Shown in pieces: positions 2,215 to 48,449 of a stretch of 64,000 nt of DNA (position 1 is its first letter; every line of letters starts with the position of its first letter). This stretch comes from Thermoanaerobaculia bacterium (GTDB lineage Bacteria; Acidobacteriota; Thermoanaerobaculia; Multivoradales; JAIOJS01), in NCBI GenBank assembly GCA_030429235.1, contig JAUIDB010000009.1:1-64000 (forward strand), in the 5' to 3' direction. A program made the translations under genes and the position numbers. A model generated the notes under the pieces. It saw nothing but the letters and a program-made list of their open reading frames with translations, ran no database searches and had not been told where the DNA came from.

Positions 2215-2391
2215 CACATCTCCTTGCAGACCGTGCCGTACTCTACCGCGGCACCGCTTGGCGCTCGTGGCCTCCCTCAGGGCGCATCGAGAACGAGGCG
2301 CACGCTGGCCTCGTAGGATCGCCCACACCCAGTACGGAAAAAGTGGCTCCCGGGTTGTCAGGAGGGCGGCTCGGCGCCGCCGGTGGTGGTT

Positions 2392-3768: not shown

Positions 3769-3774
3769 GCCACG

Positions 3775-3780
3775 AGACTA
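3775..3780 (-). promoter_or_regulatory. TAGTCT -10-like box, leaderless-start candidate
   Basis: TAGTCT ends six bases upstream of the 3768 ATG, so transcription would begin at or next to the start codon. No Shine-Dalgarno is present. No convincing -35 is seen. One of a series in this window. Confidence 0.4.
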
Positions 3781-3952
3781 GCAAACGAAGCGGTCGGGGT
3801 TGAGCCTCCGTGGTCTCCCCCTGGATCCTTCTCCGGACAGAGGGTCCACTTCTCGCCCAGGAAGCGGCCTCCTCGTTTGTCGAGAGGTGGAGGATGCCGG
3901 CCGAGCCAACTGGGATCGGACCAGACGACTCGGCAACCCCGCGGCCCGAGAG

Positions 3953-5920
3953 CTAACGGGTGGGCTCGGACTCGGGGTCGGGGACGACGCGACGAGCGAG
4001 TTCCAGCAGGTCGAGGGCGGGACGGATGGAGGCCGAGTGTGAGTCCTGGTCGAGGTCGGCCCAGAGGGACTCGACGAGATCCCAGCTCGCGATTCCGCGC
4101 TCCGGCGAGTCGCGCAGGATCATCGCCGTGGTCGCGAGACCAGCGGCCAGACGAAAACCGGGGCTCATCGTGAGACTCTCCTCGTTCGCGGCAGGGACGA
4201 TCCGTTCGATCAGCCGGCTGGGACCACCGAGCGGGGGTTGATAACGAAGCCGAACGACCATCAGTTCGTCGCGGTAGGAGGCCCGTCGGGGCTTGGCGGG
4301 CCGCTGGTAGCGGAGGGAACGCCGAGTTGCCGCTTCCGACGGGGGAGCCAGTCCGCTGGGCACGACTTCGTAGAGGGCGGTGACGGTGTGACCGGCGCCG
4401 ATCTCGCCTCCATCCCGGTCGTCGTCGTCGAAGTCCTCGTCCGGCATGAGTCGGTTCTCGTAGCCGAGCAGACGGTAGCTCGCCACCCGGGCCGGGTTGA
4501 ATTCGGCTTGAATCTTCACCTGCTTTGCAATCGTCACCAACGTGCCGTCGACCTGCTCGACCAATATCTTCCGGGCCTCGGCGAGCGAATCGATGTAGGC
4601 GTAGTTGCCGTCGCCGCTCTGGGAGAGGTCCTCGAGCAGGTCGTCCTTGTAGTTGCCCATGCCGAAGCCGAGTACCGTCAGGGAGACCCCGGCTTTCGCC
4701 TCGTCGGCCACCCGTTGCTTCAGGGCCGAGCGATCGGTGATCCCGACGTTCCAGTCGCCGTCGGTGGCCAGGATAACGCGGTTGATACCGCCCGAGACGA
4801 GCTGTTCGCGGGCGAGTCGGTAGGCGAGTTCGATCCCTTCGCCGCCGTTGGTCGAGCCGCCGGCTGCGAGCCGGGTGAGGGCGTCGAGGATCGCTCCCCG
4901 GTCACTGGCGTCGGTCGGAGGAAGCACCACTCCCGCCGCGCCGGCGTACACCACGATCGCTACGCGATCGCCCTCCTCCAATTGCTCGACCAGCAGCCGC
5001 AAGGACCGGATGACCCACGGTAGCTTGTTCTCCTGACTCATCGAGCCCGAGACGTCGAGTAGAAAGACCAGATTGGCCTGCGGGCGCTCGCTGGGAGCGA
5101 GGCTCTGACCTCGTAGCCCGATGCGGACCAGTCGGTGCTCGGGTTGCCAGGGTGCCGACGCCACGTCGACGGTTGCCGAGAAGGGCTCCTCGCCCTCTGG
5201 TTCGGGATAGCCGTAGGCCTGGTTGAAGTAGTTGAGCAGTTCTTCGAGACGCACCGCATCCCGGGGCGGACGTTGGCCTTCGCTGAGGAAACGTCGGACG
5301 TTGGCGAACGATGCCGTGTCGACGTCGGTGGCGAAGGTCGAGAGCGGGTAGTCGTGGGGATCGCGGAAGCGGTTCTCGTCGATGGGGTCGTACGACTCGG
5401 TGTCGAAGTCCATCCGGTACCAGCCGGTTGGTGGCTGGCGAGCGGTGGGTGCGTTGGCCCGGACGCGGAAGTTCCGGGGTCTGACACGAGGGTGCTCGGC
5501 GGTGACCACGATCGCCTCGGTGAACTGGGTCGACAACGTGCCGTGGAGGGTCTCGGTGCGACCGACCTCGATGGTGACCTGGTAGACATAGGTGGAGAAT
5601 CCGTCCAACTCGAAGCGGACTTCGTACCGACCCGGGGGCAAGAGGAATCGGTAGGAGCCTCCCGCATCGGTGGTTGCGGAGCGCTCGAACGACCGCTCGC
5701 TGGAGTTGTCCAACGAGGTGACCGTGACGGTGACTCCGGGGAGAGCCTGGCCCATCTCGTCGCTGGCCGAGCCGCGCAGGACTCCGGACCCACTGGCGAG
5801 AGCAGCGGCGGCGAGCACGACCAGGATCAGGAAGGCCAGCCCGGCCCTCCCTAGCCGTTGGATTCCGCCAGGCCTGGGACGCAGGGTCGCCTCTTCGACG
5901 GTGCAGGGGAGTAGGAACAT
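3953..5920 (-). CDS. Carboxypeptidase-regulatory-like plus VWA (YfbK-type) exported protein
   Basis: 655 residues. A signal/anchor helix (about 27-44) is followed by a carboxypeptidase-D regulatory-like beta sandwich (about 46-135: GxVxD-type strand, TTDAGGSYRFLLPPGRYEV, ending TEAIVVTAEHP as in TonB-plug-like extensions), the YfbK N-terminal region (about 165-280), a von Willebrand A domain with MIDAS motif DVSGSMS at 289-295 and ATDGDWNVG further on, and the C-terminal YfbK region to the end. YfbK-like proteins are periplasmic or lipid-anchored with metal-dependent protein binding; their partners are unknown. The ATG is chosen because it follows a nearly perfect AAAGGAGGT at optimal distance, one of the strongest ribosome sites in the window. 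It is more complete than typical E. coli YfbK because of the added N-terminal sandwich. Confidence 0.85.
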   Translation of the reverse strand: MFLLPCTVEEATLRPRPGGIQRLGRAGLAFLILVVLAAAALASGSGVLRGSASDEMGQALPGVTVTVTSLDNSSERSFERSATTDAGGSYRFLLPPGRYEVRFELDGFSTYVYQVTIEVGRTETLHGTLSTQFTEAIVVTAEHPRVRPRNFRVRANAPTARQPPTGWYRMDFDTESYDPIDENRFRDPHDYPLSTFATDVDTASFANVRRFLSEGQRPPRDAVRLEELLNYFNQAYGYPEPEGEEPFSATVDVASAPWQPEHRLVRIGLRGQSLAPSERPQANLVFLLDVSGSMSQENKLPWVIRSLRLLVEQLEEGDRVAIVVYAGAAGVVLPPTDASDRGAILDALTRLAAGGSTNGGEGIELAYRLAREQLVSGGINRVILATDGDWNVGITDRSALKQRVADEAKAGVSLTVLGFGMGNYKDDLLEDLSQSGDGNYAYIDSLAEARKILVEQVDGTLVTIAKQVKIQAEFNPARVASYRLLGYENRLMPDEDFDDDDRDGGEIGAGHTVTALYEVVPSGLAPPSEAATRRSLRYQRPAKPRRASYRDELMVVRLRYQPPLGGPSRLIERIVPAANEESLTMSPGFRLAAGLATTAMILRDSPERGIASWDLVESLWADLDQDSHSASIRPALDLLELARRVVPDPESEPTR

Positions 5921-6218
5921 GGTGACCTCCTTTGGTTGCCTCGTCCTGGTTCAAGGATCAGGCCAATGCGGGAGCATCGTGCCGTCAAAGTCGAGGGTCA
6001 CCGCAGGCAAGTTCAGCGAATCCAGAGATTTGGCGGTCGGGTGGCGATGCGCGGCTGGCTCACCTCGCGAGGCACCCTGTAGGCGGATTTCAATTTTCTG
6101 GAACGACGAAAACCAGAAAGTCGAAGATCGCGGGGTTGGAGTCGTCGATCGGCCAGGGGGCGGGTCGTACTCCCTCCGAGCCCAGCGCCCTTGTCGTTGA
6201 GCTCGATCGTGGCCTCGC
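5921..6218. other. Intergenic region without recognisable gene
   Basis: About 300 bases between two minus-strand genes. It contains the strong Shine-Dalgarno of the 5920 gene and a slightly AT-richer patch near 6085-6115; short reading frames here have no homology signature or ribosome site. I see no RNA gene or clear terminator. Confidence 0.5.
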
Positions 6219-7022
6219 CTACTGCCCGGTGAGTTCTTCCAGAATCCCTTCCGCCATCTCGGCCTCGAAGGAACCGGGCTGGAGCCGGAGCACGCGTCGG
6301 AGGTCCGGAACGATCGAGTGATCGAGCTGCGGCACCATGAGGGTCAGGGTGTAGACGGCCAGCGTACTCACCCGCTCGGTAGGGGCGTCCATCACTTCGG
6401 CGTCGTTGAAGAGGGCGTCGTAGAAGAGATAGCGGCGGATGACGGGAATCATCTCAGGGTCCCAGGGGGCGGCGAGTGCGCCCAGTGCGACCCGTCTCGG
6501 GGCTTCTGGTCGCTTCTCGCGCTCCAGGTCGGCGGCCTCCTGGACCTCGGCCTCGTCCCACCCGTGCCGTTCGCCAAAACCGAACCCGATCTGCGCCGAG
6601 GCGAACGGTTGGTGCTCTCGTTGGGCCAGTTCCAAGACGAACTCGATGCGGGCGGCGGGAGGCAGCTCGTGGAATCGCCCAAGCGCGGCCAGCGTGGCCG
6701 CGGCCGCGAACCGTCGTTCCAGCTGGTCTTGTGCGGCGACCCAATCGGAATCGGCGATGGCCGAGAGATCGGATTCGTGCCGCCCCGCCGGCAACTCCGG
6801 TAGCAGGCAACTGATCTCGAACAGGAGCCAGGCATCTCCGCCCGGGGCGGTGCCCCAGGTCTTCAGGGTCTGGCACGTCGGGTTGGCGTCGGTCAGCCAG
6901 GCGTCCAAGACAACCCGAGGATCGGCTTCGTTCTCTGCCGGTAGGGCCGAGGCCCACCACAGGATGCAGAGCAAGCAAAGCGACCACAGTCTCGACGGCG
7001 GGGACGGGTCACAACAGTCCAT
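6219..7022 (-). CDS. Exported protein of unknown function
   Basis: 267 residues, not recognised. A short Cys-rich signal peptide (residues 11-29, SLCLLCILWWASALPA) precedes a predominantly alpha-helical mature region rich in Ala, Glu and Arg. A few Cys residues (TCQTLKTW, FEISCLLPEL) could pair in the periplasm. The C-terminal half (ALGALAAPWDPEMIPVIRR, then LDHSIVPDLRRVL) resembles HEAT-like helical pairs, but this is weak. A TAGGCT box ends six bases before the ATG and no Shine-Dalgarno is seen, which supports this start as a leaderless one. It is the only minus-strand gene between two ~200-300 base gaps and is probably monocistronic. Confidence 0.7.
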   Translation of the reverse strand: MDCCDPSPPSRLWSLCLLCILWWASALPAENEADPRVVLDAWLTDANPTCQTLKTWGTAPGGDAWLLFEISCLLPELPAGRHESDLSAIADSDWVAAQDQLERRFAAAATLAALGRFHELPPAARIEFVLELAQREHQPFASAQIGFGFGERHGWDEAEVQEAADLEREKRPEAPRRVALGALAAPWDPEMIPVIRRYLFYDALFNDAEVMDAPTERVSTLAVYTLTLMVPQLDHSIVPDLRRVLRLQPGSFEAEMAEGILEELTGQ

Positions 7023-7028
7023 AGACCG

Positions 7029-7034
7029 AGCCTA
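7029..7034 (-). promoter_or_regulatory. TAGGCT -10-like box, leaderless-start candidate
   Basis: TAGGCT, then six bases, then the 7022 ATG. The same hexamer and spacing occur before 41054, and with seven bases before 21923. Confidence 0.45.
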
Positions 7035-7217
7035 GCGCACCATGGGCCAGGGGTTGGTGGAGAGACACTCGAGGCCACCAGACCAGTTGGCTCACGGCCT
7101 CTTTCGAGTCGGGCAGTTCCGGGTTTCCGATCCCAGCGAGCCGGCCGCGGTTCGGTGGCGGGGGACTGACAGGGACTCAGAAGAAGTGGCCCCTGCGGTC
7201 GACACGCGGGACGTCTG

Positions 7218-8663
7218 TCAGCTGGTGGACACATTCGCAGACGACGGTGCAGGAGTGCTTCGACCCATTGCCGGCACCGTTCGCGTCTCGGGTTCGGCGG
7301 ACCTGGTGTCAGGCCGATCGAGTATCCCCTCGAGCAGCGGCAGCATGAGGGCCAACCGTTGTGAGCGAATGACCAGATCCCAAAGGGGCTCGAACTTCTT
7401 CCAGCCGGCGGCGTAGAGGAATCTCCGAACTCGGTGGGCCGTTGCCCCGCCGACCCGGGCGGCGCGGGCGAGGTTCGACCAACGGTAGAACTCCCGGTAG
7501 GCCTTCCAGTAGCCCAGCTCCAGGGTCTCGGGACTCATGTGGCGCGGTTCGAACACGGCGTGGCGCGTGTCGTAGCGTCGCCAGTCGCGATGCCGCAGAC
7601 GCCCTTCGGCGGCGATCCGGGCGAAGTACTGGGTGCCGGGGTACGGCGTCGCGATATGGAAGGTGGCGGTGGTGAGCCCTACCGAAACCGCCCAGTCGAC
7701 GGTCCTCTCGAAGACGTCGGTGCGGTCGTCGTCGAGGCCGAACACGAAGCTGCCGTTGATGGCGATCCCGAGGTCGTGCAACCGGGAGATGGCCGCTCGG
7801 TAGTTCGACTTGAGGTTCTGACGCTTGTTGCTCCGTTCCAGATTGGCGGCCGAGAGGCTCTCGAAGCCGATGAAGACGCTGCGCAGACCCGCTGCGGCGG
7901 CGAGCTCGATCGTATCGTCGCGCAGGATCGCGTCGAGCGTGGAGGCTCCCTGGAACAGGCGCTTCATACCTCGAAGGCCAACAAACAGTTCGCGGGCGAA
8001 GCGTCGGTGGCCGAGCAGGTGGTCGTCCAGGAAGTACAGGTGGCGTCCCGGCAGGCGCTCGATCTCCGCCAGGGCCTCGTCCACTGCCTGGGTGTAGAAG
8101 CCACGGCCACCCTGGAAGAATGCGTCCTTGTAGCAGAAGTCGCAGTGGTGGGGGCACCCCCGGCTGACGACGAGGGAGTTGGGGACCAGATAGCGCCGCC
8201 GGCGAATCAGGTCTCGCCGCACCGGAGGAACGCCGATCAGGCTTCGGGTGCGACCGGTGTACCGGGGCTGCAGCTGGCCGCGGCGAGCGTGAGCCAGCAG
8301 CTGCGGGAAGACCTCCTCCCCAGGTCCGAGACAGATCGCGTCGGCGTGTCGGCTGGCCTCCTCGGGCAGCGAAGTGACGTGCAGCCCACCGAGCGCCACC
8401 AGGCTGCCGCGGGCCCGGTAGAGATCGGCGATCTCGTAGGCTCGGTGAGCGTTGGTGATGTAGACCTGAATGACCACCAACTCGGGATCGTCGTCGAAGC
8501 GCAGCGTCTCGACATGTTCGTCCACCAACGTCAGATCGTCGGTGGGCTCGCAGTAGCCAGCGAGGGTCGCGAGACCGAGGGGAGGAAAGAGGGAATACTT
8601 GATCGGGCGGAAGAAGGGACTGGTCGCCTCGGTCAGGGCCGGCAGGATGAACTTGATGCGCAT
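7218..8663 (-). CDS. B12-binding-domain radical SAM protein
   Basis: 481 residues from the chosen ATG. The N-terminal ~140 residues have the fold pattern of a cobalamin-binding Rossmann domain (PPLGLATLAGYCEP, VVIQVYIT, VALGGLHVT, CLGPGEEVFPQLL). The radical SAM core follows, with the [4Fe-4S] ligands C170-x3-C174-x2-C177 in SRGCPHHCDFCYKD. Later strands (GLRSVFIGFESL, INGSFVFGLDDD, IATPYPGTQYF) are typical of the BchE/HpnP-like class. The C-terminal ~100 residues are basic and helical. Such enzymes catalyse methylations or rearrangements on hopanoids, tetrapyrroles or lipids; the substrate here cannot be told. The longer frame upstream has only low-complexity Arg/Ser, and the family begins with a strand like MRIKFILPA, so 8663 is preferred; TACCTT lies six bases before it. 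Confidence 0.88.
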   Translation of the reverse strand: MRIKFILPALTEATSPFFRPIKYSLFPPLGLATLAGYCEPTDDLTLVDEHVETLRFDDDPELVVIQVYITNAHRAYEIADLYRARGSLVALGGLHVTSLPEEASRHADAICLGPGEEVFPQLLAHARRGQLQPRYTGRTRSLIGVPPVRRDLIRRRRYLVPNSLVVSRGCPHHCDFCYKDAFFQGGRGFYTQAVDEALAEIERLPGRHLYFLDDHLLGHRRFARELFVGLRGMKRLFQGASTLDAILRDDTIELAAAAGLRSVFIGFESLSAANLERSNKRQNLKSNYRAAISRLHDLGIAINGSFVFGLDDDRTDVFERTVDWAVSVGLTTATFHIATPYPGTQYFARIAAEGRLRHRDWRRYDTRHAVFEPRHMSPETLELGYWKAYREFYRWSNLARAARVGGATAHRVRRFLYAAGWKKFEPLWDLVIRSQRLALMLPLLEGILDRPDTRSAEPETRTVPAMGRSTPAPSSANVSTS

Positions 8664-8669
8664 GCGATC

Positions 8670-8675
8670 AAGGTA
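8670..8675 (-). promoter_or_regulatory. TACCTT -10-like box, leaderless-start candidate
   Basis: TANNNT hexamer six bases upstream of the radical SAM ATG at 8663, which lacks a Shine-Dalgarno. Confidence 0.35.
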
Positions 8676-8783
8676 CTGCCCAGTTGTGGCTCGAAACGGG
8701 CGACTTCGAGGCAGACTCGGCCTCCCCCGAGACCTCGCCACGAACCAACCAGTACCCTGGGCTCTTACCGATGCGGACTCACC

Positions 8784-9434
8784 TCACCAGCGATAGGTCA
8801 CACCGATGCTGGCTTCCCTCTGCCACAGCACTCCATCGAGGCGTGCCGGCAGATCATGCCACCAGGCGCGAGCCTCGAGGCGCAGGTCGAGGTGGTTGCT
8901 GAGCGCGACCTTGAGGCCGCCGGCCAGGCTCCCCGAGAGGACCTCTTCGTCTACCGGCCTGGGTACGGCGTGCACGACCAGAGGCAGGTGGTAGGCACCG
9001 ACCGAAGAGTCGAAGCTCGTCACTCCCGCGGTCAGGGCGCCGAAGGGACGCAGTCGGTCGTGGCCCCAGGTACGAAGGACCCCGATCTGCGCCGTCGACC
9101 AGTCGTAGGTGCCCTGATCGACGATGTCCGGAAACTCGGAGCGAAACTCGAAATCCCCGTCCTGTTCGGTGTAGAGGAGTTCGATGGCCCATAGGGGGGA
9201 GATCGGAAGATCGAGAATCAGGGTGAACCGCGCCTGGTCGTCTTCGGTGAAGACCTCGGCGGTGACGCAAGGCGTGGTGACACAGTCGACCATGGGTGAG
9301 TGGGCTTCCGTGGTGAAGGTCGGACCGCCACTTCGGTGACCGACGGAGAGGGTGAGCTCGGGACCGTCGGCAGCGGCGACTGGGGCCCAGGACACGAGGC
9401 CCAGTAGAAGAATCGTGGTGCGTGGTCGAATCAT
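8784..9434 (-). CDS. Small outer-membrane beta-barrel protein
   Basis: 216 residues. A clear signal peptide (MIRPRTTILLLGLVSW... AAADG) is followed by alternating hydrophobic/polar strands, Trp/Tyr girdles and a terminal strand ending in VTYRW, the aromatic C-terminus recognised by the BAM machinery. Size and strand content fit an eight-stranded OmpW/OprF-N-like barrel. One disulfide-like pair (VDCVTTPCVTAE) sits in an early extracellular-type loop. The ATG is chosen over longer frames because of the signal peptide and a GAGGAG ribosome site. It lies 254 bases downstream of the cytochrome operon on the same strand; a functional link is possible but not shown. Confidence 0.8.
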   Translation of the reverse strand: MIRPRTTILLLGLVSWAPVAAADGPELTLSVGHRSGGPTFTTEAHSPMVDCVTTPCVTAEVFTEDDQARFTLILDLPISPLWAIELLYTEQDGDFEFRSEFPDIVDQGTYDWSTAQIGVLRTWGHDRLRPFGALTAGVTSFDSSVGAYHLPLVVHAVPRPVDEEVLSGSLAGGLKVALSNHLDLRLEARAWWHDLPARLDGVLWQREASIGVTYRW

Positions 9435-9688
9435 GGTGGCTCTCCTCGAAGCCGAGGCCGCGGAATGTGGCCCCGCACCTTGCGAGTAGGGCAAGAGGCG
9501 TGCCACCAGGGTTCTGGGGCTGCTGGTCCAGAACGGCTGGCGACCCGACCGGGGGCTGTGGGTGGAGCCTGTCGGACTCTCCGGACAGGTGTCTTGGAGA
9601 ACCGACGCTCCTGGAGAGTGGGCAGCCGGACCCTCGGGCACCACGGTCAGTGGGCGCCAACTGTGGTGCCCATGCCGTGACGACTTGC

Positions 9689-11053
9689 CTACGGTCTAGC
9701 CAGAAATGCGTTGGGGTCCCCCTCGACTTCGTCCCAGAACTTGACATTGGCTTGACGCAGCAGGGGGAACGGAAGCACCCCGCCGACCATGACGAACACG
9801 AAGTCGTTGGGGATCTCCAGGGTGTCTCCCTCTTGCTCCAGGAGGACCGACTCGGGTCGGATCTCCACCACCTGGGAGGAAAGGTACAGGGTGATCCGTC
9901 CCCGCTTGGTGAGTCGTTCGAGAGCTTCCCGGTTCTTGGACTTGATCCGGAAGATCTTGTCTCGGCGGTAGGAAATGGCGACTTCGTTCCCTGGTTGTCG
10001 GGCGAGTCCCATGGCAGCTTCTACCGCGCTGTCGCCACCACCCACACAGAGGATCCGCAGCCGGCGATACTGCTCCGCGTCGCGAACCTGGTAGAGGACC
10101 TTCTCGAGCTGTTCGCCGGGAACTCCGAGTTTCCGCGGTGTTCCGCGGCGACCCAGGGCCAGGAGAACTCGACGCGAGACGAACTTCTGGTCGGTGGTCG
10201 ACAGTTGCAATCGCTCGGGGGCCTCGCGGTCGGCGCCCAGTACTTCGATCGAGATCACTCGTTGGCCGTAGCGAATGGGGAGGCGGTAGCTCTCTACTAC
10301 CTCCTCGAAGATCTCCAGAAGCTCTTCCTTGCTGTACTCGCCCTTCTCCAGCGGGCCGTATTGCGGAAGTACCACGGGTTGCGTGTGGGTGAGTTTGCGC
10401 CGAGGGTACTGATAGACGGTTCCTCCGAGGTCCTCTTGCTGTTCCAACACAAGAAAGTTGAGCCCCTGGGCTTGGGCGGCCAGCGCCGCACTCAGGCCGG
10501 CTGGGCCGGCGCCGACGATGAGGAGATCGGGCATCGATTCTTCGGGAGGAGATCCATCGTCAGCGATCTCCTGGGCGATGGCCTCCACGGCTCGAGCTCC
10601 CTGATCGATGGCATTGCGGACCAACGCCAGGCCACCGAGTTCCCCGGCGATGTAGAGGCCTGGGACGGTGGTTTCGAGGTTGCGCGACATGACCGGGACG
10701 TCGGATCTGCCTCGCAAGTCGCCGACGGCCAACTCGATGGCGCCTACGGGGCAGGCCTTCTCGCACTGCCCGATCCCGATGCAACGGGCTCCGTTGACCA
10801 CCACCGCCAGACCGCCGACCAGTCCGAGCACGTCCTTTTCCGGGCAGGCCTTGACGCAACCGCCGCAGCCGATGCAGATGCTCGGGTCGACGTAGGGATA
10901 GAGCATCGAAGGCCGGTGGATGCCGAGCTCTCGTGCCTCCTCCACTCGGCGCCGCTCCTTTCGATCGCGCCGGCGGAAAGCGACGAAGTACCCTCCGACG
11001 ATGGTCAGGAAGAGGAGCAGCGACGCGGTCCAGATCAGCGTGTCGATGTTCAC
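9689..11053 (-). CDS. Membrane-anchored Fe-S/FAD/NAD(P) oxidoreductase, last gene of cytochrome operon
   Basis: 454 residues from a GTG that overlaps the upstream TGA (GTGA). Residues 5-25 form one membrane helix followed by RRRDRKERRR, which by the positive-inside rule puts the rest in the cytoplasm. Then come a full [4Fe-4S] motif (C60, C63, C66, C70), a second ferredoxin-like motif with only three Cys (C91, C97, C101; the usual fourth is I94), a segment VPGLYIAGELGG (about 130-141), a FAD Rossmann motif (IVGAGPAGLSAA, from 179) and an NAD(P) motif (GGGDSA at 338-343). The family resembles thioredoxin-reductase-like flavoproteins but has no redox-active CxxC. Inferred role: NAD(P)H oxidation feeding electrons to the membrane b-type protein and multihaem cytochromes encoded upstream. 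Confidence 0.85.
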   Translation of the reverse strand: MNIDTLIWTASLLLFLTIVGGYFVAFRRRDRKERRRVEEARELGIHRPSMLYPYVDPSICIGCGGCVKACPEKDVLGLVGGLAVVVNGARCIGIGQCEKACPVGAIELAVGDLRGRSDVPVMSRNLETTVPGLYIAGELGGLALVRNAIDQGARAVEAIAQEIADDGSPPEESMPDLLIVGAGPAGLSAALAAQAQGLNFLVLEQQEDLGGTVYQYPRRKLTHTQPVVLPQYGPLEKGEYSKEELLEIFEEVVESYRLPIRYGQRVISIEVLGADREAPERLQLSTTDQKFVSRRVLLALGRRGTPRKLGVPGEQLEKVLYQVRDAEQYRRLRILCVGGGDSAVEAAMGLARQPGNEVAISYRRDKIFRIKSKNREALERLTKRGRITLYLSSQVVEIRPESVLLEQEGDTLEIPNDFVFVMVGGVLPFPLLRQANVKFWDEVEGDPNAFLARP

Positions 11054-12729
11054 TCGGACCCTCCGTTGCCATGACAGTCGAGGCATTCTCGACCGGTGGG
11101 CCGGTAGCGGACGAAGGTCGAGTCGCCGGCGACTTCGGTGGGATGGCAGGTACGGCAGGGGACTGCGCGGTGCGCGCCGACGAGCAGGTAGACGTCCCGA
11201 TGGTCGAATCTGGACGGCTCCCAGGAATCGGAGTCGTGGCAGCGAGCGCAAGGGTTCGGTTCCTCGGCGGTGCCGAATTGCCCCTGGTGCGGACTGTCGT
11301 GGCACGCTCGGCAGTCGGCGCGGGCGGTGGAGAATCCGACTCTTTTCAGGTCCGCTCCCGCGGTGCTCTCGCGGTGACATTGGAGACACGAGACGTCGGC
11401 GTGCCGACCCTCCAGGAAGAACCCTGTGCTCGCGTGATCGAACGCCACCTCGGACCACCGAACCGGAGAGTGGCAGGTCTCGCAGCCGTTCGGCAAGGCT
11501 CGCACCGATTTGTCGTGGGGGTTGCGATGGCAGGATTCACACGACGACGAAGCAAAGCGGAACTGCAACAGCTGACGCGTTCGGGGTGCTCTCGCCAGAC
11601 CGGCTCGCACCAGGCTGTCCGCCGGAACTCGTCGATGGCATTCGACGCAGGGGACGTTTCGGTGCGCACCCTCGAGCGAGAAGCCCGTCGTCTCGTGATC
11701 GTCCTGGTCGAAGAGAGACGGTTCGAAACCCGCGACGTCGTGGCAGCTGTCACAGCCGCGACCCTCCTGTGAGAGTTGGCCCGCATGGGGATCCCGGTGG
11801 CAGGTCTCACAGCGGTCGAAGCGCTCCGAAGAGAACGAACGCGTCAGGGATTCGCCGTGGCAGGCCACGCAGGCCACCGATCGGTGGCGCCCCCGCAGAG
11901 GATACCGAGTGCGGTCGTGATCGAAGCCGGTCGTCTCGGTCCGGTCCCATCCGTCGGTCGAGTGGCAGTTGGCGCAGGTGCCTTCGAGGCGCCCCTGGTG
12001 CGGGTCCTGGTGGCAATCGGCGCAGGTTTCAGCGGCCAGGCCACGGTACTGCACGTCGCCCCCGGCCCGGGGCTGGTGGCAGTCGCTGCAGCTGACGTCG
12101 CGGTGGAGCCCGGTGAGCGGAAACCCGGTCTGCTGATGATCGAATCGTTCAGCCCCTCTCCACTCTTGCAGACCATGACAGGACGAGCAGGTTGTCGACT
12201 CGAACTGGCCGGCGTGCGGATCGGCGTGGCAGGAGGAGCACTCACTGCCTAGCCCCAGGAAGGTTCGCTTCAGGTCGATTCCCTCGGCGAGCAGCGGGGC
12301 GGGTCGGGGAATGTGTTCGGGCTGGTGGCACGAGCGGCAGGCCACTCCACGATGGCTCGCTTCGAGCGGGTAGCCGGTCTGGGAATGGTCGAACGTCTCC
12401 ATGCCTTCCTCGCCCCACCAGACGAGAGCGAAGTCGCGCCCGTGGTGCTCGATGTGGCAGCGCTCGCAGGCGGTGTCCACGGTGCGGGCGTGGAGACCCT
12501 GGCCGGCCGAGATGCGACTCGAGAGCACCTGGTGACAGGAGAGACAGAGGTCCCGATCGACCCCTCGTCCAGAGCTGTGACAGCTGAGACACTGGTCGCT
12601 ACCGTCGAGTTCCCGGTGCGCCGCCGACAGTTCACCCGGAGAGATTTGCCCCTGGGTCGGCTGGGCAAGCCCGGCGACCAATCCGCAGAGGATCGCGGTT
12701 CCGAGGAAGCGCCCGGTGAGTCGCTTCAA
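11050..12729 (-). CDS. 20-haem c-type cytochrome
   Basis: 559 residues with a signal peptide (MKRLTGRFLGTAILCG... TQGQ). I count 20 CxxCH haem-binding motifs. Much of the chain is built on a repeated pattern FDHxxTGFxLxGxHRxVxCxxCH, followed by CxxCHxDPHxGQ; the extra His in FDH and HR are probable distal axial ligands. This is the class-III/cytochrome c3-like multihaem style, periplasmic or surface exposed, acting as an electron wire. The start is a TTG that overlaps the previous stop (TTGA), the only choice that gives an intact signal peptide; frames reaching further upstream encode Arg/Pro-rich nonsense inside the neighbour. Its position between the b-type membrane protein and the flavoprotein suggests it takes electrons from the inner membrane. 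Confidence 0.9.
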   Translation of the reverse strand: MKRLTGRFLGTAILCGLVAGLAQPTQGQISPGELSAAHRELDGSDQCLSCHSSGRGVDRDLCLSCHQVLSSRISAGQGLHARTVDTACERCHIEHHGRDFALVWWGEEGMETFDHSQTGYPLEASHRGVACRSCHQPEHIPRPAPLLAEGIDLKRTFLGLGSECSSCHADPHAGQFESTTCSSCHGLQEWRGAERFDHQQTGFPLTGLHRDVSCSDCHQPRAGGDVQYRGLAAETCADCHQDPHQGRLEGTCANCHSTDGWDRTETTGFDHDRTRYPLRGRHRSVACVACHGESLTRSFSSERFDRCETCHRDPHAGQLSQEGRGCDSCHDVAGFEPSLFDQDDHETTGFSLEGAHRNVPCVECHRRVPADSLVRAGLARAPRTRQLLQFRFASSSCESCHRNPHDKSVRALPNGCETCHSPVRWSEVAFDHASTGFFLEGRHADVSCLQCHRESTAGADLKRVGFSTARADCRACHDSPHQGQFGTAEEPNPCARCHDSDSWEPSRFDHRDVYLLVGAHRAVPCRTCHPTEVAGDSTFVRYRPTGRECLDCHGNGGSE

Positions 12730-13589
12730 CGACCCACCCAGCCGTAGCCGGTCATCAGCGCCACGCCGATGTGGACGGCCATGAACAGGTACATCAGCAG
12801 GGCGAAGGGTTTGTGGAAGACGTGCCAGTAGTGGAAGAGCTGTCGAACTCGATCCCAGAGAGCCAGGCGCAGGTGCAGTTTCACTTTGCGTTCCACGAGT
12901 TTCCGAACGTCTCGGCGTAGGCGGCTCTCTCCCGTGAGTTCCTTCCATCGACGGGTCAGTCTACGCCGGAGAAGAAGGGGGCCGATCAGCAGAGAGCCGA
13001 GCAGCACCACTGCGTTTCTGCGGCGCATGCGGTCCAGCGCCAGTGCTTCGAGTTCCCCGATCTGCTGCTCGGAGAGCCCGAGTTCGAGGGACAGTCGCTT
13101 GGCGAGTCTCGCGTCCTCGGCCTCGACCTCGGCCTGGGTGAGTTCATCCCCGGCGGAGGTCCGCGGAATCTGGCGATAGAGAAAGCGCCCGAGTACGCCA
13201 CTCGAAGCCACCAGGACCATCGACCAGAAGCTGAGGGCCACCAGCCCGCCGACTTTGAACGAGCTATGCAGCAGGACGAAGAGCGGACCGAAGACGCCCA
13301 GCAGAATGTGGTAGTCGAGCCAGACGCCCACCGGCCCGAGTCGTCGCAGGAGTCGAACCCGCTTGCGAAGCGAGTAGGCGAGCATCACCACCATCATCGA
13401 CGCCCCGGCGATCCCGAAGAGCAGGCCGAGATCACCGCCCGGCTTCAGGCTCCAGTACATCTCGTGCCGTGGCCTCTGCGCCAACGGCAAGGTGTAGTAG
13501 TCCCATCCCCTGAAAAGGAAGAAGAGGAAGGTGCCGGTACCGGTGAGGTACAGCGATGTCAGAACGATTCGGTGGCCGACTCGCTCCAC
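12726..13589 (-). CDS. Di-haem b-type integral membrane protein
   Basis: 287 residues, with about five or six hydrophobic segments (roughly 10-27, 55-75, 92-110, 115-135, 193-208, 262-280). Two helices carry His pairs with cytochrome-b spacing: H94 and H108 (LDYHILLGVF... LLHSSFK), and H259 and H273 (VFHKPFALLMYLFMAVHIG), both 14 apart. That is the bis-His pattern that holds two haems b across a membrane. A highly basic cytoplasmic loop (205-245) lies between. Not a close match to any named cytochrome b I know. Start GTG at 13589, one base after the TAG of the upstream gene. Probable role: carry electrons between the cytoplasmic flavoprotein or quinone pool and the periplasmic haem proteins. 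Confidence 0.78.
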   Translation of the reverse strand: MERVGHRIVLTSLYLTGTGTFLFFLFRGWDYYTLPLAQRPRHEMYWSLKPGGDLGLLFGIAGASMMVVMLAYSLRKRVRLLRRLGPVGVWLDYHILLGVFGPLFVLLHSSFKVGGLVALSFWSMVLVASSGVLGRFLYRQIPRTSAGDELTQAEVEAEDARLAKRLSLELGLSEQQIGELEALALDRMRRRNAVVLLGSLLIGPLLLRRRLTRRWKELTGESRLRRDVRKLVERKVKLHLRLALWDRVRQLFHYWHVFHKPFALLMYLFMAVHIGVALMTGYGWVGR

Positions 13590-13590
13590 T

Positions 13591-14745
13591 CTAGTTCTCG
13601 AGTTGCAGGGTGACGATCCCTCCGAGTCTGCCGTCCTGGCGCGCGGAGAGGTCTCCCGGCGTGACCGAGAAGGCGTTGCCATCCTGGTCGAGCTTGGCCT
13701 GGATCTGAGCCGTCGCGGTCAACGGCTGTCCCGTCATCGAGTGCTGCGGTCCGAGCAGCAGTTGCATCGGGAACACGGGGTCGTCGACCCGCCGTGCGGC
13801 CAGGGGCGGCCCGCCGTCGGGGCCACGGGCCGAGAGGAAGAGGGTCGCCCCAACGGGCGGAGTTGCCCCGGGAGCCAACGAGACGCGGACCAGATAGCCG
13901 TCGGGCTGGGCTGCTTCGTCGCGGTGGGTGCCCCGCAGCAGAGCAAAAGTGTTCGACGCGGCCGCTTCGGGAAGCGCGGCCCCCGCCTCCGTCAGGAGTG
14001 CTTCGAGTTCGAGGTGACGTCCGCCCGCCGCTTCGAGTCCCCGCTGCCAGGTCTCGGTGGCCGCTTCTGGTAGACCGGCTCGCCGCTGAGCCCGCCCCAG
14101 GGTGACGAGAGCCCCGACGTGGTTCGGGTAGTCGACGAGCAAGCGTTGGAGGAGGTCGATGGAGCGACCCGCTTGCCCCATCTGGAGTCGGACCACACCC
14201 TGAACGTACAGGCCGTCGGGGTCATTCGGCGAGGCCTGCAGCAGGGTCTGGGCTTGCTCGAAGGCCTCGACGAAGCGACCTTCCGACAACAAGAACAGAG
14301 CGAGTTCCTTGCGTCCGTTGACGTTCGAAGGATTCTCCTCCAAAGAAGCACGCAGTCCGCTGATTCGAGGCGGTTCGTCGGAGAGCGGTCCGGGCGGTTG
14401 ATGAGGAGGAAGGTTCGAGGTGGACTCGGGGATCGTGGCTGTCGCCGGAGACGGAGGGAGGGCGGCCGAGGGGGCGGTCCGGGGGGGCGCCACGGGGGAG
14501 GACTCTGGAGCGGCCCAGTTGACGACCGTCGCGATGATGACACCGGTCGCCACTCCTGCGAAGAAGCCGATGGCTCCGGGCTTGGGAGTCAGTCTCAGGG
14601 GCCCGCTGCTGTCCGTGCCCCCCGCCGACTCTGAGTCGATCTCTTCGTTGTCGTCGGTTGGTCGTGGCCGCTGCAACCAGAGGAGGGCGATGACGACTGC
14701 GAGGCAGGTGCCGGCGGCCAGGAATGGCCAGTTGTTCCAGATCAT
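13591..14745 (-). CDS. CcmI/CycH-like TPR cytochrome c maturation protein
   Basis: 384 residues. An N-terminal anchor helix (about 5-24), a Pro-rich linker with a second hydrophobic stretch (about 58-77), TPR repeats (about 130-240: GRKELALFLLSEGRFVEAF, DGLYVQGVVRLQMGQAGRS, GALVTLGRAQRRAGLPEAA) and a C-terminal domain GATLFLSARGPDGGPPLA, then FPMQLLLGPQHSMTG and VTPGDLSA. This last part closely follows the CcmI/CycH C-terminal consensus (xFVxARxxxGPPxPLAxxR ... PGDLxG). CcmI holds apocytochrome c for haem ligation. Placing it between the barrel and the b-type gene suggests a maturation factor dedicated to the two large multihaem cytochromes. Frame begins with MIWNNWPFLAAGT; no better start is evident. 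Confidence 0.8.
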   Translation of the reverse strand: MIWNNWPFLAAGTCLAVVIALLWLQRPRPTDDNEEIDSESAGGTDSSGPLRLTPKPGAIGFFAGVATGVIIATVVNWAAPESSPVAPPRTAPSAALPPSPATATIPESTSNLPPHQPPGPLSDEPPRISGLRASLEENPSNVNGRKELALFLLSEGRFVEAFEQAQTLLQASPNDPDGLYVQGVVRLQMGQAGRSIDLLQRLLVDYPNHVGALVTLGRAQRRAGLPEAATETWQRGLEAAGGRHLELEALLTEAGAALPEAAASNTFALLRGTHRDEAAQPDGYLVRVSLAPGATPPVGATLFLSARGPDGGPPLAARRVDDPVFPMQLLLGPQHSMTGQPLTATAQIQAKLDQDGNAFSVTPGDLSARQDGRLGGIVTLQLEN

Positions 14746-14832
14746 AGTCTTCTCTCGAGGCCGTCGCGGATCGTCGCACGCGCCGGCGGTAGGTACGGGT
14801 TCGTCGAAGGGCCGGACGCCATCGCGTCCAGC

Positions 14833-16515
14833 CTAGAAACGATACCCGAGCTGAACGAAGTAGCGTGAGCCCTCGAAGGTGTCGCCACGGTTCAGTTCGT
14901 ACTCCATCAAGGCGAAGGTGCGCTTGGGCAAGCGCAGAGTTCCCGAGACCCGGACCCAATCGTCCTTGGCTTCGACTTGGTTGAACGATACGTCGGTCGT
15001 CGAAGTACCCACCGTGAGCCCAACGTCATGCCCCTTCTCGAAGTACTTCCGCATTCGGAGTCCGATGCGGGATCCACTCGATGAGTCGCCGTCGAAGGAA
15101 GAGTAGTCCGCGCCGAGGAGGAGCCCCCAACCCATGACGTTGCTGTGGTATAGGCTCCCGTTCAGCGTCGTATTGTCCTCGCTGCTGCCCTCACGACGTC
15201 GGAGTCCGATCGAACCGGTGAAACGAATCCCGGTGGGTGGCCCCAGGTACAGCGTGAGTCGACTCCCTTCCCGCAGCATGTCGTCGAAACGCTCCTCCGG
15301 GGTATCGCGGTTCTCGAGGTCCCGAAACCGGCGCCGCTGGTCGTAGGTCAACGCCACGCGGACGGAGTCGGTGAATTTGTAGGATCCCGACAGCAACAGG
15401 TTGGACACCTGGTAGGTTTCGTCGGAGGTATCGCTACGCCAGCCGCTGTGGAAGTCGACGTCGGCCCGCTGGTAGAGAGACCACCGACTGCCGCGGCCCT
15501 GTCGACCATAGATCGAGAGGTACTCCCGATTGACGTCGCCATCGTCGTACTCTCCAATCGCTCCGACGAGGAACTCGGCGTAGAACGGTCGGCCTCGTTC
15601 ACGATTCTCGTAGTGGAAGAAGGCGCCATAGGTGGTCAGGGTACCGTCGAGGCCAAAACTCTCGATGTCCGAGCGAGTGCCATAGAAACCGCCGATGCCG
15701 AATCTCGAGCTGATGTGGTACTCGGCCTGCAGGCCGTCGAGATAGTCGAATCCGATCAGCGGTCCGGAAGGGATGCGCCCGAGCCGATAGCTGTAGCGCG
15801 AGTCGTCGGGGTCGTAGATCAGTTCCATCTCGTAGAGCCGGTCGGAGCGATCGGTTTCGGTCTGGCGTCCGAGCCGAGTGTCGGAGTCCTGCCGACCCCG
15901 GGCGCGTACCCGGAGTTCGTAGTCGCTGCCGGCGATGTTGCGCAGGGTCAGATTGACCCGAAGTGTCGTCTGATCGAGCACCCGAGGGGCGTCTCCGTCG
16001 TCTTCGAAGCGTTGAAAGCGGGCGGAGATGCTGCCGCGCAGATCGGTCGTAGGCAGCGCGTCAGAGCTGGCTACGTAGCGGCGTGGGCTCTTGGGGCGAG
16101 GGGAAGCAGTCGGCGGCGGGTCGTTGGTTCGGGACTCTGCCTCCAGGGGCAAGGGCACCGCTCGGTCGCCCTCCCGAACAGACTCGAGCGATTCGAGGAT
16201 GATGCAGGAAGAGGACGAGGACGAGATGAAGGCGATTTCAAGCCGGGCGATCGGTCGTTCCCCTCGCCAGACTCGGAGCTGTTGACCGACGGCGAGATCG
16301 GCCTTGCGGCCGGCGTCGAGAAAGACCTTGTCTCCGGCAACCTGAGACACGCGGATGGTCGGGCTGGTGGTCCCCGTGCCCGGGGCCTCGGTGGTCTTCG
16401 CGGTGGCACTCTCCTCCTGCCCTACCGCTGGCTGGCCTAGCAACACTGCGAGGATCAAGAGAGTTGCGCCGAGCCGTGGCCTTGCCTGCTTTCGAGAGAC
16501 GGTCCCGAGAGTCAT
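14833..16515 (-). CDS. Outer-membrane beta-barrel of the cytochrome operon
   Basis: 560 residues with a signal peptide (hydrophobic residues 16-32, ending AVGQE). Residues ~45-130 form a soluble N-terminal region (TIRVSQVAGDKVFLDAG...) like a small beta domain; an odd FISSSSSSCII Ser run is present. From about 150 to the end the sequence is alternating amphipathic strands (LRVNLTLRNIAGSDYELRVR, YRLGRIPSGPLIGFDYLDG) ending LGYRF, an aromatic BAM signal. Strand count (about 20-26) fits a large porin like MtrB/PioB in size, though I cannot claim that family. It has no CxxC of MtrB. The ATG overlaps the stop of the 22-haem gene (ATGA), so the two are translationally coupled; this pairing is the basis for suggesting a porin-cytochrome conduit. 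Confidence 0.82.
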   Translation of the reverse strand: MTLGTVSRKQARPRLGATLLILAVLLGQPAVGQEESATAKTTEAPGTGTTSPTIRVSQVAGDKVFLDAGRKADLAVGQQLRVWRGERPIARLEIAFISSSSSSCIILESLESVREGDRAVPLPLEAESRTNDPPPTASPRPKSPRRYVASSDALPTTDLRGSISARFQRFEDDGDAPRVLDQTTLRVNLTLRNIAGSDYELRVRARGRQDSDTRLGRQTETDRSDRLYEMELIYDPDDSRYSYRLGRIPSGPLIGFDYLDGLQAEYHISSRFGIGGFYGTRSDIESFGLDGTLTTYGAFFHYENRERGRPFYAEFLVGAIGEYDDGDVNREYLSIYGRQGRGSRWSLYQRADVDFHSGWRSDTSDETYQVSNLLLSGSYKFTDSVRVALTYDQRRRFRDLENRDTPEERFDDMLREGSRLTLYLGPPTGIRFTGSIGLRRREGSSEDNTTLNGSLYHSNVMGWGLLLGADYSSFDGDSSSGSRIGLRMRKYFEKGHDVGLTVGTSTTDVSFNQVEAKDDWVRVSGTLRLPKRTFALMEYELNRGDTFEGSRYFVQLGYRF

Positions 16516-18212
16516 TCTTCTCCATCCGGGTGACAGGAGTAGCAACTCGCGGTCTGGTAGACGTACCCCGACACATCGTCGTGCTCGTCGTCCATGTCCG
16601 GCCGGTTGTGCTCGTGGCAATCGATACAGGAGAAGACCTGGAAGTTCCCGGGGGCGATATGGCAGTCCGAACAGTCGTTCCAGGCGCGCCGGTGGGATCC
16701 CGAGTTGATCGGAAAGTCGTGATTGAAGTCGGCGTCGTTCCAGTCCGTCGTGTTGTGGCAGCTCTCGCAGGTGGTGGGGAACCCGGCCGCGGCGTGGTTC
16801 GGATCGTTGGTGTTGTTGTAGTCCGCCAGGTGGCAGGAGAAGCAGTCGGACGGGGTGCCGGCATAGCCATCATCGTGACAAGCGATGCAATCGAGTTGAC
16901 GGTGCGCGCCGTCGAGCACGAAACCCGTCTGGTTGTGACTGAAGCTCGAGGGCTCCCAGCCCACCTGGCTGTGGCAGGTCTCACAGTTGATCGGTAGGCC
17001 GGCGTGGACCGGATCCTGGGCCGCGTTGTAGTTGGATTCGTGGCACGAGAAGCAGTCGCTCGGAGTGCCGGCGTAGCCGTCGGCGTGGCACGACTCGCAG
17101 GCGACCGCCCGGTGAGATCCCTGCAACGGGAAGCCGGTCTGGTTGTGGTCGAAGTTCGCCGGTTGCCAGCCGTTCTCTCCGTGGCAGTTTTCGCAAGTGG
17201 TGGGGAACCCGGAGTGGTCGGGTTCGCTGGCGCCGGCGTAGTCGGACTCGTGGCAGGAGAAGCAGTCGGTGGGGGTGCCGGCGTAGCCGTCGGCGTGGCA
17301 GGAGGCGCAGTCGGCGGTGCGGTGGGCACCCTGCAGCAGGAATCCGGTCTGGTTGTGGTCGAAGTTTGCGGGCTGCCATCCGTTCTCGCTGTGGCAACTC
17401 TCGCAGGTGGTGGCGAAGCCAGAGTGGTCGGGTTCGCTGGCGCCGGCGTAGTCGGACTCGTGGCAGGAGAAGCAGTCGGTGGGCGTACCGGCGTAGCCGT
17501 CGGCGTGGCAGGAGGCACAGTCTGCGGTACGGTGGGCGCCTTGCAGCAGGAATCCGGTCTGGTTGTGGTCGAAGTTTGCGGGCTGCCATCCGTTCTCGCT
17601 GTGGCAGCTCTCGCAGGTGGTAGAGAATCCGGAATGGTCCGGGTCGCTGGCGCCGACGTAGTCGGACTCGTGGCAGGAGAAGCAGTCGGTCGGAGTGCCG
17701 GCGTAGCCGTCGGTATGACAGGAGGCACAGTCGATGGTGCGGTGGGTCGCCACGAGTGGGAACGCTGTCAGGTTGTGATCGAAGCTCGAGGGCCTCCAGC
17801 CGTCTTCGGTATGACAGCTGGCACAGCTCTGCTCGAACCCGGTGTGATCGGGTTCGGCCGCATTCTCGAAGTCCGACTGATGGCACGATGCGCACTGGCT
17901 ATCGGCTTCCGAGAACACCAGCGAAGGGTGACAACTCCGGCAGGCGGTTTCCTGATGGGAGCCCCTCAGTTCGAACCGAGTCGAGGCATGGTCGAACGGC
18001 AGGGGGTCGAGAAGGGGGGTCCAGCCCGCTTCGGAGTGACAGTAGGTGCACCCGATGTCCTGCCGTCCGTGTGGCGACTCTGGAATGTCGGTCGCCCGGG
18101 TCGCATTCGGCCCGACGAGGCAGAGGAGCAGCGCGTAGAAACAGGCAAGCGAGAGGGTTCGGTTCGATCTCTCGCTCGCCAGCTTGTTCGGAGCAGCGCT
18201 GCGTCTGAGCAT
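16512..18212 (-). CDS. 22-haem repetitive c-type cytochrome, first gene of operon
   Basis: 566 residues, signal peptide about 1-40 (SLACFYALLLCLVGPNATRA). I count 22 CxxCH motifs. The centre is a 70-residue unit carrying three haem sites, in the order CASCHADGYAGTPTD, CFSCHESDYAGASEPD, CESCHSENGWQPANFDHN, then QTGFxLQGAHRTAD, repeated about five times; the DNA repeats at exactly 210 bases (16861-17700). FDHN and GAHR supply likely distal His ligands. The tail (FNHDFPINSGSHR... CIDCHEHNRPDMDDEH) differs and may form a docking end. Haem density is about one per 25 residues. The start ATG lacks a Shine-Dalgarno but has TAGGAT seven bases upstream. Probably exported and paired with the following barrel gene. 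Confidence 0.92.
   Translation of the reverse strand: MLRRSAAPNKLASERSNRTLSLACFYALLLCLVGPNATRATDIPESPHGRQDIGCTYCHSEAGWTPLLDPLPFDHASTRFELRGSHQETACRSCHPSLVFSEADSQCASCHQSDFENAAEPDHTGFEQSCASCHTEDGWRPSSFDHNLTAFPLVATHRTIDCASCHTDGYAGTPTDCFSCHESDYVGASDPDHSGFSTTCESCHSENGWQPANFDHNQTGFLLQGAHRTADCASCHADGYAGTPTDCFSCHESDYAGASEPDHSGFATTCESCHSENGWQPANFDHNQTGFLLQGAHRTADCASCHADGYAGTPTDCFSCHESDYAGASEPDHSGFPTTCENCHGENGWQPANFDHNQTGFPLQGSHRAVACESCHADGYAGTPSDCFSCHESNYNAAQDPVHAGLPINCETCHSQVGWEPSSFSHNQTGFVLDGAHRQLDCIACHDDGYAGTPSDCFSCHLADYNNTNDPNHAAAGFPTTCESCHNTTDWNDADFNHDFPINSGSHRRAWNDCSDCHIAPGNFQVFSCIDCHEHNRPDMDDEHDDVSGYVYQTASCYSCHPDGEE
16861..17700. repeat. Four full 210-bp tandem coding repeats in the 22-haem gene
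   Basis: Units begin at 16861, 17071, 17281 and 17491 (degenerate further copies flank at 17701 and below 16861), each opening with gcgtagccgtcggcgtggca or a variant. Units 17281-17490 and 17491-17700 are nearly identical, implying recent in-frame duplication. Each unit adds 70 residues and three haems. Confidence 0.95.
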
Positions 18213-45932: not shown

Positions 45933-46052
45933 TCTAGGGCTGCGCCTTGTCTGCTCCCGACATCACACGGTCCCTCCGAACCTCTCGCGGGCACGTCCGG
46001 ACCGACTCGGCGACGGTCGGGATCGGGGATGCTGAAGGAACCCGCTCCGATG

Positions 46053-46073
46053 GGCAAGGTGGCGCGCCTTGCC
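46053..46073. promoter_or_regulatory. Inverted repeat ggcaagg-N7-ccttgcc near moxR
   Basis: Perfect 7-bp arms just upstream of a TACAAT hexamer at 46080-46085, 30 bases before the MoxR ATG; possible operator on the Bat operon promoter. Confidence 0.45.
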
Positions 46074-46114
46074 GGGGGCTACAATCGCGCCATTCCACTC
46101 CGAAGAGGTACTGC

Positions 46115-47979: not shown

Positions 47980-48449
47980 ACGAGCTGCCGGCCGGGCTGG
48001 CACCACCACTCCACCTGATCGAGGAGGAACCCAGCCGGCTCTGGCTCTGGCTGCTGCTCCTGCTCGTTGGGGTCGCTGGGCTCTGGTGGCGGCAACGTCG
48101 TCGGCAAAGCGATTCTGGGACCGAGAAGGTTCTCGCCACGGTTCCGGGGCCGGGGCCGACTGCCCTGGAGCGTGCCATCGACGCACTGCGAGAGCGGGTG
48201 GTCATCGAGGGAGACTTCCGTCGGGGGTGCCACGAGTTGGCGGCGCTGTTGCGGCCGAGATTCCGGGGAGCCTTGACCCGCACCGCCCGCGAGTTGCGGG
48301 ATTTCGTCGAGGAGCGGAGCGTGGTCGACCTCCTGGCACGGCTCGAAACGATGCAGTTCCAGCGGCGTCCACCCGACCGCTCTCTCTTCGAGAGCGTCTG
48401 CCGGCGCGCCAAGGCAGTGGCTCTGCTGATCGAGGGTAGGGAGGAATGA
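47973..48449 (+). CDS. Small membrane protein, DUF4381-like
   Basis: 158 residues from ATG 47973 (MVNELPAGLAPPLHLIEEEP); a possible GTG three bases later would be equivalent. One helix (about 25-43, LWLWLLLLLVGVAGLWW) and a cytoplasmic helical domain (ERAIDALRERVVIEGDFRRG, ELAALLRPRFRGAL). Position between DUF58 and BatA and this architecture match DUF4381, a component of MoxR-Bat operons. Overlaps the DUF58 stop by seven bases and the next gene by four. No catalytic residues. Confidence 0.78.
   Translation: MVNELPAGLAPPLHLIEEEPSRLWLWLLLLLVGVAGLWWRQRRRQSDSGTEKVLATVPGPGPTALERAIDALRERVVIEGDFRRGCHELAALLRPRFRGALTRTARELRDFVEERSVVDLLARLETMQFQRRPPDRSLFESVCRRAKAVALLIEGREE

Follow-up and report, generated by a model that had tools for sequence, protein, structure and literature searches.

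A PCC3-like porin-cytochrome gene set with a recurrent NAD(P)H module in three phyla: a conduit that may be fed directly by NAD(P)H

Introduction

The conduits MtrCAB, MtoAB, Omb-Oma-Omc of Geobacter, Ext and OetABI share one principle at the outer membrane, a cytochrome held inside a barrel, and are fed by quinol-linked inner-membrane cytochromes. Here we describe a six-gene cluster, encoding proteins A to F, in a Thermoanaerobaculia bacterium of the phylum Acidobacteriota (contig JAUIDB010000009.1, of which a stretch of 64 kb, hereafter the window, was analysed). It encodes two multihaem cytochromes (B and F), a predicted outer-membrane barrel (E), a predicted di-haem b membrane protein (C), a flavo/Fe-S protein (A) and a putative cytochrome c maturation factor (D). 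We read the cluster as a PCC3-like porin-cytochrome conduit that is fed directly by NAD(P)H, and give this reading a probability of about 60%.

The PCC3 class was defined in 2017 from Alpha-, Beta- and Gammaproteobacteria and consists of a porin, an extracellular and a periplasmic cytochrome and an inner-membrane protein (IMP) (PMC5566968). The periplasmic cytochrome has a median of ~21 haems and the extracellular one, which is variable, a median of 34. The IMPs of both PCC3 and PCC4 are proteins of ~300 aa with five transmembrane (TM) helices, the motif WX3HX13H on TM3 and TM5 and SGXXG on TM4; HX13H pairs are also known from ferric reductases (FRE) and NADPH oxidases (NOX) (PMC5566968). Sideroxydans ES-1 has two PCC3 clusters, Slit_0867-0870 and Slit_1446-1449. 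The class has been surveyed in Gallionellaceae, where one cytochrome was suggested to be long enough to bridge the periplasm (PMC10734462), and its function is so far without experimental test (PMC12442390).

The locus has a PCC3-like core

The six genes lie on the minus strand in the order F-E-D-C-B-A and span positions 9689-18212. All the open reading frames (ORFs) described in an earlier inspection of the letters alone (the sequence-only reading) were recovered, together with their junctions: ATGA, TTGA and GTGA overlaps, a TAG-A-GTG junction and an 87-base gap, which separates E from D. Judged from this spacing, the six genes are likely co-transcribed. A sigma-70 scan found no promoter, and a terminator scan, for which chance predicts 4.6 sites, gave two that overlap and lie within C, both scans being uninformative. 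The earlier count of 42 c-haem motifs also held, with 22 CXXCH in F and 20 in B. Since every other stop-to-stop frame of more than 60 codons in the window contains at most one CXXCH, chance does not account for 42 of them in just two genes of the same cluster.

The core formed by the cytochromes, the porin and the IMP is PCC3-like, as judged by published features rather than by descent. In C, for which TM helices are predicted at residues 8-26, 54-72, 89-107, 115-133 and 262-280, the motifs W90..H94-X13-H108 (TM3), S130GVLG134 (TM4) and W255..H259-X13-H273 (TM5) are invariant or nearly so among 53 homologues. These are the features of a PCC3 IMP, but PCC4 IMPs have the same motifs, hence C alone does not separate the two classes. 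The four histidines H94, H108, H259 and H273, which form two HX13H pairs, are invariant in 53/53 homologues, in support of the di-haem b protein proposed earlier. C resembles the DUF4405 and Ferric_reduct families weakly. The possibility that it is a true ferric reductase or NOX was set aside, as its Ferric_reduct score (10.8 bits) is under the cut-off of 28 and the FAD/NAD domains are on a separate chain.

With its 20 haems, and with homologues that mostly have 20 or 23, B corresponds to the periplasmic cytochrome of PCC3, its periplasmic place being taken from the signal sequence only. F fits the extracellular cytochrome in number (22 haems, homologues with up to 53), its extracellular place being predicted. 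The haem counts of the 53 complete B homologues are stepped (20 haems in 20, 23 in 23, 24 in five, 17 in four and 19 in one), whereas those of F-like proteins range from 8 to 53; this would suit a periplasmic wire of fixed length joined to a variable outer wire. Nearly all F homologues share a cap at the C terminus, FPI.SG.H..CHEH..GY.Y.S.ACY.CHP.G. The same cap is present in an extra short F-like cytochrome of 8-12 haems, encoded directly before the barrel gene at a number of Neomarinimicrobiota loci (L123, L124, L127, L128, L130, L131, L133-L136 and L139).

For E, AlphaFold2 (AF2) predicts 22 strands over residues 158-559 (mean pLDDT 84.4), which supports the large barrel of the sequence-only reading and agrees with the porin of PCC3, although the published porins are often larger, with up to 42 predicted strands. 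Its N-terminal domain (~54-121) is related to TsaP (profile match to 3jc8, E=7.5e-7). No Pfam or NCBIfam family, MtrB/PioB-type porins included, was found for E, and a PDB fold search returned generic large barrels with low TM-scores, with no close MtrB-like fold in the top 50 matches. If E were an unrelated barrel, and F a periplasmic or inner-membrane protein, there would be no outer-membrane conduit at all. In favour of such a locus are the outcome of these searches, the location of F, which is a prediction, and the fusion of A to F in three genomes (see below). However, E accompanies F in nearly all complete loci of the A type, across three phyla; the fusions retain a signal-peptide-like stretch that could free F; and F varies in length with its C-terminal cap kept, as would be expected if an outer wire docks to a pore that is fixed. 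We consider the absence of a conduit very improbable.

The locus has in common with PCC3 a porin, two cytochromes, one very rich in haem and predicted to be extracellular and one of 20 or more haems predicted to be periplasmic, and a five-TM IMP of ~300 aa; it differs in occurring in other phyla, in having an NAD(P)H module in the set and, within the window's taxonomic order, a CcmI-like gene. From MtrCAB, MtoAB, Omb-Oma-Omc, Ext and OetABI it differs in that E matches none of their porin families in Pfam or NCBIfam and in haem number, which is 20 for B and 22 for F. OetABI (PMC10553843) and the porin-multihaem cytochrome clusters of Verrucomicrobia, with eight-haem cytochromes (PMC5615132), were considered as counterparts but set aside because of their haem numbers and gene content.

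An NAD(P)H module recurs beside C

C was found in 65/396 Acidobacteriota genomes at E <= 1e-10, of which ~40 are strong matches. The weak ones (E 1e-35 to 1e-10) were not counted as members, since another IMP family, if not several, is among them (L089). C was also present in 31/120 genomes from the phylum of a Neomarinimicrobiota metagenome-assembled genome (MAG). E was found in 16/59 genomes searched as relatives. A, B, C, E and F occur together in Acidobacteriota, in Neomarinimicrobiota and on plasmid pEMTOL02 of the cultured Bacteroidota species Emticicia oligotrophica DSM 17448, the only match in a search of plasmids with C. This five-gene set is real and well conserved, and barrel and flavoprotein thus accompany the homologues in three phyla. 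Its gene content is conserved; the order of the six genes seen in the window is not. The five genes come in varying order in Acidobacteriota, usually as C-A-B-F-short F-E in Neomarinimicrobiota, and as ccsA-C-A-B-F-E on pEMTOL02, where B has 23 haems and F 40. Through ccsA, this cluster too includes a gene for cytochrome c maturation. Between C and A, one Neomarinimicrobiota MAG encodes a small protein that has one CXXCH (L024, 8614-11311, identical with L137), and the same holds for L123 and L126. At L073 (9257-10198) the C gene of genome G063 is split into two ORFs, by an assembly error or in a decayed copy.

The association of C with a reductase was evaluated at 72 distinct loci, after two that had been fetched twice were dropped. 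A is encoded in the same stretch as C at 52 of them. At a further 11, C adjoins a protein unrelated to A, with a hydrophobic N-terminus followed by FAD_binding_6, NAD_binding_1 and 2Fe-2S domains; four of these alternative reductases were scanned against Pfam, and those of the other loci were found with a profile of the four. The two reductases were together at none of the 72 loci. In the tree of C, a branch supported at 98/100 divides the alternative reductase type from the A type, and one or two changes are needed. Neither reductase is present at the remaining nine loci, six of which are in genomes with A elsewhere (G009, G041, G063, G234, G277 and G360); the other three are those of G018, where A is absent, and of G284 and G374. 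Furthermore, three genomes of one genus have A and F fused in frame through a signal-peptide-like stretch (Table 1). The fusion links A with the pathway and agrees with A being cytoplasmic and F being exported; it also recalls the fused bc1 precursor FbcH. The linkage of A, its exclusive replacement and its fusion argue that C exchanges electrons with NAD(P)H, and not only with quinones.

These observations have to be weighed against a quinone-linked PCC3, in which C would trade electrons with menaquinol and A would be accessory, for instance a reductase for cytochrome assembly or maintenance. He et al. proposed quinone activity for the IMP (PMC5566968), published descriptions of the proteobacterial PCC3 clusters list four genes, among which there is no NAD(P)H module, and some of our loci have neither reductase. 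An accessory role, however, does not readily explain why two unrelated NAD(P)H/Fe-S reductases are mutually exclusive in the same role, nor why the reductase gene often lies directly beside C and not beside maturation genes; A has no CXXC in its sequence, which makes a thiol reductase unlikely. We consider the quinone-linked alternative unlikely, and prefer the entry of electrons from NAD(P)H.

Reductase genes in the neighbourhood of porin-cytochrome clusters (PCCs) have been noted before: in karst MAGs described in 2026, a ferredoxin-NADP+ reductase (FNR) gene is close to 7/11 group-1 clusters, in which a large multihaem cytochrome adjoins a porin of ~20 strands (PMC13264449). That reductase was identified by Prokka annotation only, and the text describes no five-TM protein, permutation, fusion or alternative reductase. 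In the open-access literature we found no paper that links a PCC3 IMP with an NAD(P)H module. The novelty that the sequence-only reading attached to the module, without listing the PCC3 match, therefore has to be narrowed: what is new is the recurrence of the set in three groups, the presence of A at most C loci, its replacement by an unrelated reductase and the A-F fusion.

Protein A is a predicted membrane-anchored flavo/Fe-S protein

A matches Fer4 and Pyr_redox_3 in Pfam and has a predicted N-terminal TM helix. A homologue in a Thermoanaerobaculia MAG is 80% identical to it; a contig scan with A peptide patterns retrieved four loci only, as the patterns were specific to A of the window. 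In the second Fe-S motif just three cysteines are retained, C91, C97 and C101, invariant in 34 homologues, and within residues 91-101 the second cysteine is replaced by Ile or His in all aligned homologues. A [3Fe-4S] cluster or a non-cysteine ligand is therefore possible at this site.

The FAD/NAD(P)H domain is closest to YpdA/Bdr and to proteins like thioredoxin reductase (TrxR). In A, the segment VPGLYIAGELGG precedes the GxGxxG segment, its usual place being after the NAD(P)H domain, where it closes the FAD domain. When A was rotated to the usual order, the YpdA model TIGR04018 was covered over 1-314/316 (167.6 bits), whereas in a control with the same tail shuffled the match ended at 265 (150 bits); the TrxR model responds to rotation in the same manner. 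Since the rotated order, unlike the shuffled tail, matches the model end to end, A is apparently a circularly permuted YpdA/TrxR-like enzyme. The full-length family score for YpdA is 158 bits (cut-off 339.9), in a protein whose domain order is not the usual one. Two arginines, the invariant R363 (in SYR) and R369, which is almost invariant, are similar to those that bind NADPH in TrxR and suggest NADPH, rather than NADH, as the substrate. A thus shares FAD and NAD(P)H domains with YpdA/Bdr and the TrxR-like FNRs, but has a permuted FAD domain, extra Fe-S motifs and a membrane anchor, and lacks CXXC. A match to A on a Pseudoalteromonas plasmid proved to be a different Fe-S flavoprotein amid glycosyltransferase genes, with no conduit.

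Proposed path and direction of electron transfer

In the route that we propose, NAD(P)H would reduce the FAD of A at the cytoplasmic face, and the Fe-S clusters of A would hand electrons to the two b haems of C. From C, across the inner membrane, they would enter the 20-haem wire B in the periplasm. F, which barrel E would hold, would then take them across the outer membrane to an extracellular acceptor such as a metal oxide, a humic substance, an electrode or another cell. The sequences establish the parts with their conservation and linkage, the A-F fusion and the alternative reductase; we infer the cofactors, the contacts, the order and direction of transfer, the acceptor and the use of NADPH over NADH. 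Such a route would bypass the quinone pool and amount to a module of the ferric-reductase/NADPH-oxidase kind wired to the cell surface. It resembles NOX and FRE in having a di-haem b membrane domain with HX13H pairs, a cytoplasmic FAD/NAD(P)H module and, as proposed here, outward electron transfer across the membrane; it differs in that the flavin module is a separate gene (TrxR-like with Fe-S, or FNR-type with 2Fe-2S) and that a multihaem wire is on the acceptor side. A path from the cytoplasm to the outer membrane, as in the sequence-only reading, remains the best reading of the parts, but it is not a new kind of conduit, as the core fits the published features of PCC3. More tentatively, and at somewhat less than even odds, we suggest a form of extracellular electron transfer that is independent of quinones: a conduit across both membranes would itself oxidise NAD(P)H, and its conserved di-haem b protein would have acquired, in three or more phyla, either of two unrelated NAD(P)H/Fe-S reductases as a partner.

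Outward flow, which redox potential and membrane potential both favour, is most likely. Because outward electrons follow the membrane potential, the route would serve to balance the redox state or to reduce an acceptor, and not to conserve energy directly. Alternatively, extracellular electrons from reduced metals, minerals, a partner cell or a cathode could pass inward via F, B, C and A to NAD(P)+. Multihaem wires are able to conduct both ways and PCC3 is found in iron oxidisers (PMC5566968). Against this, expression of the two PCC3 clusters of ES-1 is lowered on Fe(II) (PMC8788666). The reduction of NAD(P)+ (about -320 mV) by donors of the Fe(II) type would, on general bioenergetic grounds, also be uphill, and inward electrons would work against the membrane potential; it thus appears rather improbable that the conduit runs inward.

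Several points weigh against an NAD(P)H-fed outward conduit. PCC3 was modelled as quinone-linked by He et al. in 2017 (PMC5566968), and it is usually discussed for Fe(II) oxidation, though the response of ES-1 goes the other way (PMC8788666). E has no close relative in the PDB, and the E-F complex is a proposal. In addition, there are lineages without either reductase, such as that of genome G018, which has A neither at its C locus nor elsewhere.

The point of entry of electrons into PCC3-type conduits is what is at stake: the published guess is the quinone pool, whereas the recurrent module, its replacement and the fusion point to NAD(P)H. With the set on a plasmid of cultured E. oligotrophica DSM 17448, the question is accessible in culture. 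If the proposal is true, minerals, humic matter or partner cells could be a direct outlet for the NAD(P)H of many Acidobacteriota and Neomarinimicrobiota of soils and sediments.

Protein D and cytochrome c maturation

D has two hydrophobic helices and a TPR_16 match, and its Ig_CycH score is borderline (26.6 bits with the protein, 29.4 bits in the genome search, cut-off 27). The CcmI-like assignment made earlier is thus backed by the tetratricopeptide repeats (TPRs) and left borderline by Ig_CycH. D was the only CycH-type protein detected in the genome; CcmA/B/C/E/F-like genes sit on another contig (C40), and CcmH (PF03918) was not found in the genome. Being the sole protein of its type, with the other Ccm-like genes elsewhere, D may serve all c-type cytochromes of the cell, and a factor dedicated to this operon is not supported. 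At loci of this kind, D is found mainly within the window's own taxonomic order.

Features of the locus, a second locus and neighbouring genes

Table 1. Positions of the six operon genes (in the window) and of the A-F fusions (in their own loci).
Feature	Position	Strand	Length	Description
F	16512..18212	-	566 aa	c-type cytochrome, 22 CXXCH, signal sequence; predicted outer/extracellular wire; Cytochrome_C7
E	14833..16515	-	560 aa	Predicted outer-membrane barrel, 22 strands; TsaP-related N-terminal domain
D	13591..14745	-	384 aa	CcmI/CycH-like, putative cytochrome c maturation factor; two TM helices, TPRs, borderline Ig_CycH
C	12726..13589	-	287 aa	Predicted five-TM di-haem b inner-membrane protein; PCC3/PCC4 IMP motifs
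B	11050..12729	-	559 aa	c-type cytochrome, 20 CXXCH, signal sequence; predicted periplasmic wire
A	9689..11053	-	454 aa	Membrane-anchored NAD(P)H-type flavoprotein; two Fe-S motifs; apparently circularly permuted YpdA/TrxR-like domain
A-F fusion	L029:5034-7847	+		In frame
A-F fusion	L030:4543-8649	+		In frame
A-F fusion	L039:345-3140	-		In frame

The same genome contains a second, PCC4-like locus (L089, G000:C26:120000-138000; 1723-14176). It encodes cytochromes with 5, 8 and 10 haems, a C-like membrane protein directly preceded by a cNMP-binding/Fer4_11 protein, and two further proteins, one with FHA and one of the TrxR-like/FHA/2Fe-2S type. PCC4 subgroup II has been defined in the literature by Fer4_11 (PF13247) encoded upstream of the IMP.

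Downstream of the operon, the window encodes a B12-binding radical SAM protein of the HpnR/HpnJ/BchE kind (7218-8741, minus strand), which scores under every equivalog cut-off. Farther away are an FG-GAP repeat/UnbV_ASPIC protein adjoining a sigma-54 response regulator and a histidine kinase (26148-30963, minus strand), a further FG-GAP protein (42106-43470, minus strand) and a gene cluster of MoxR ATPase, DUF58 and BatA/VWA proteins (45947-51471, plus strand).

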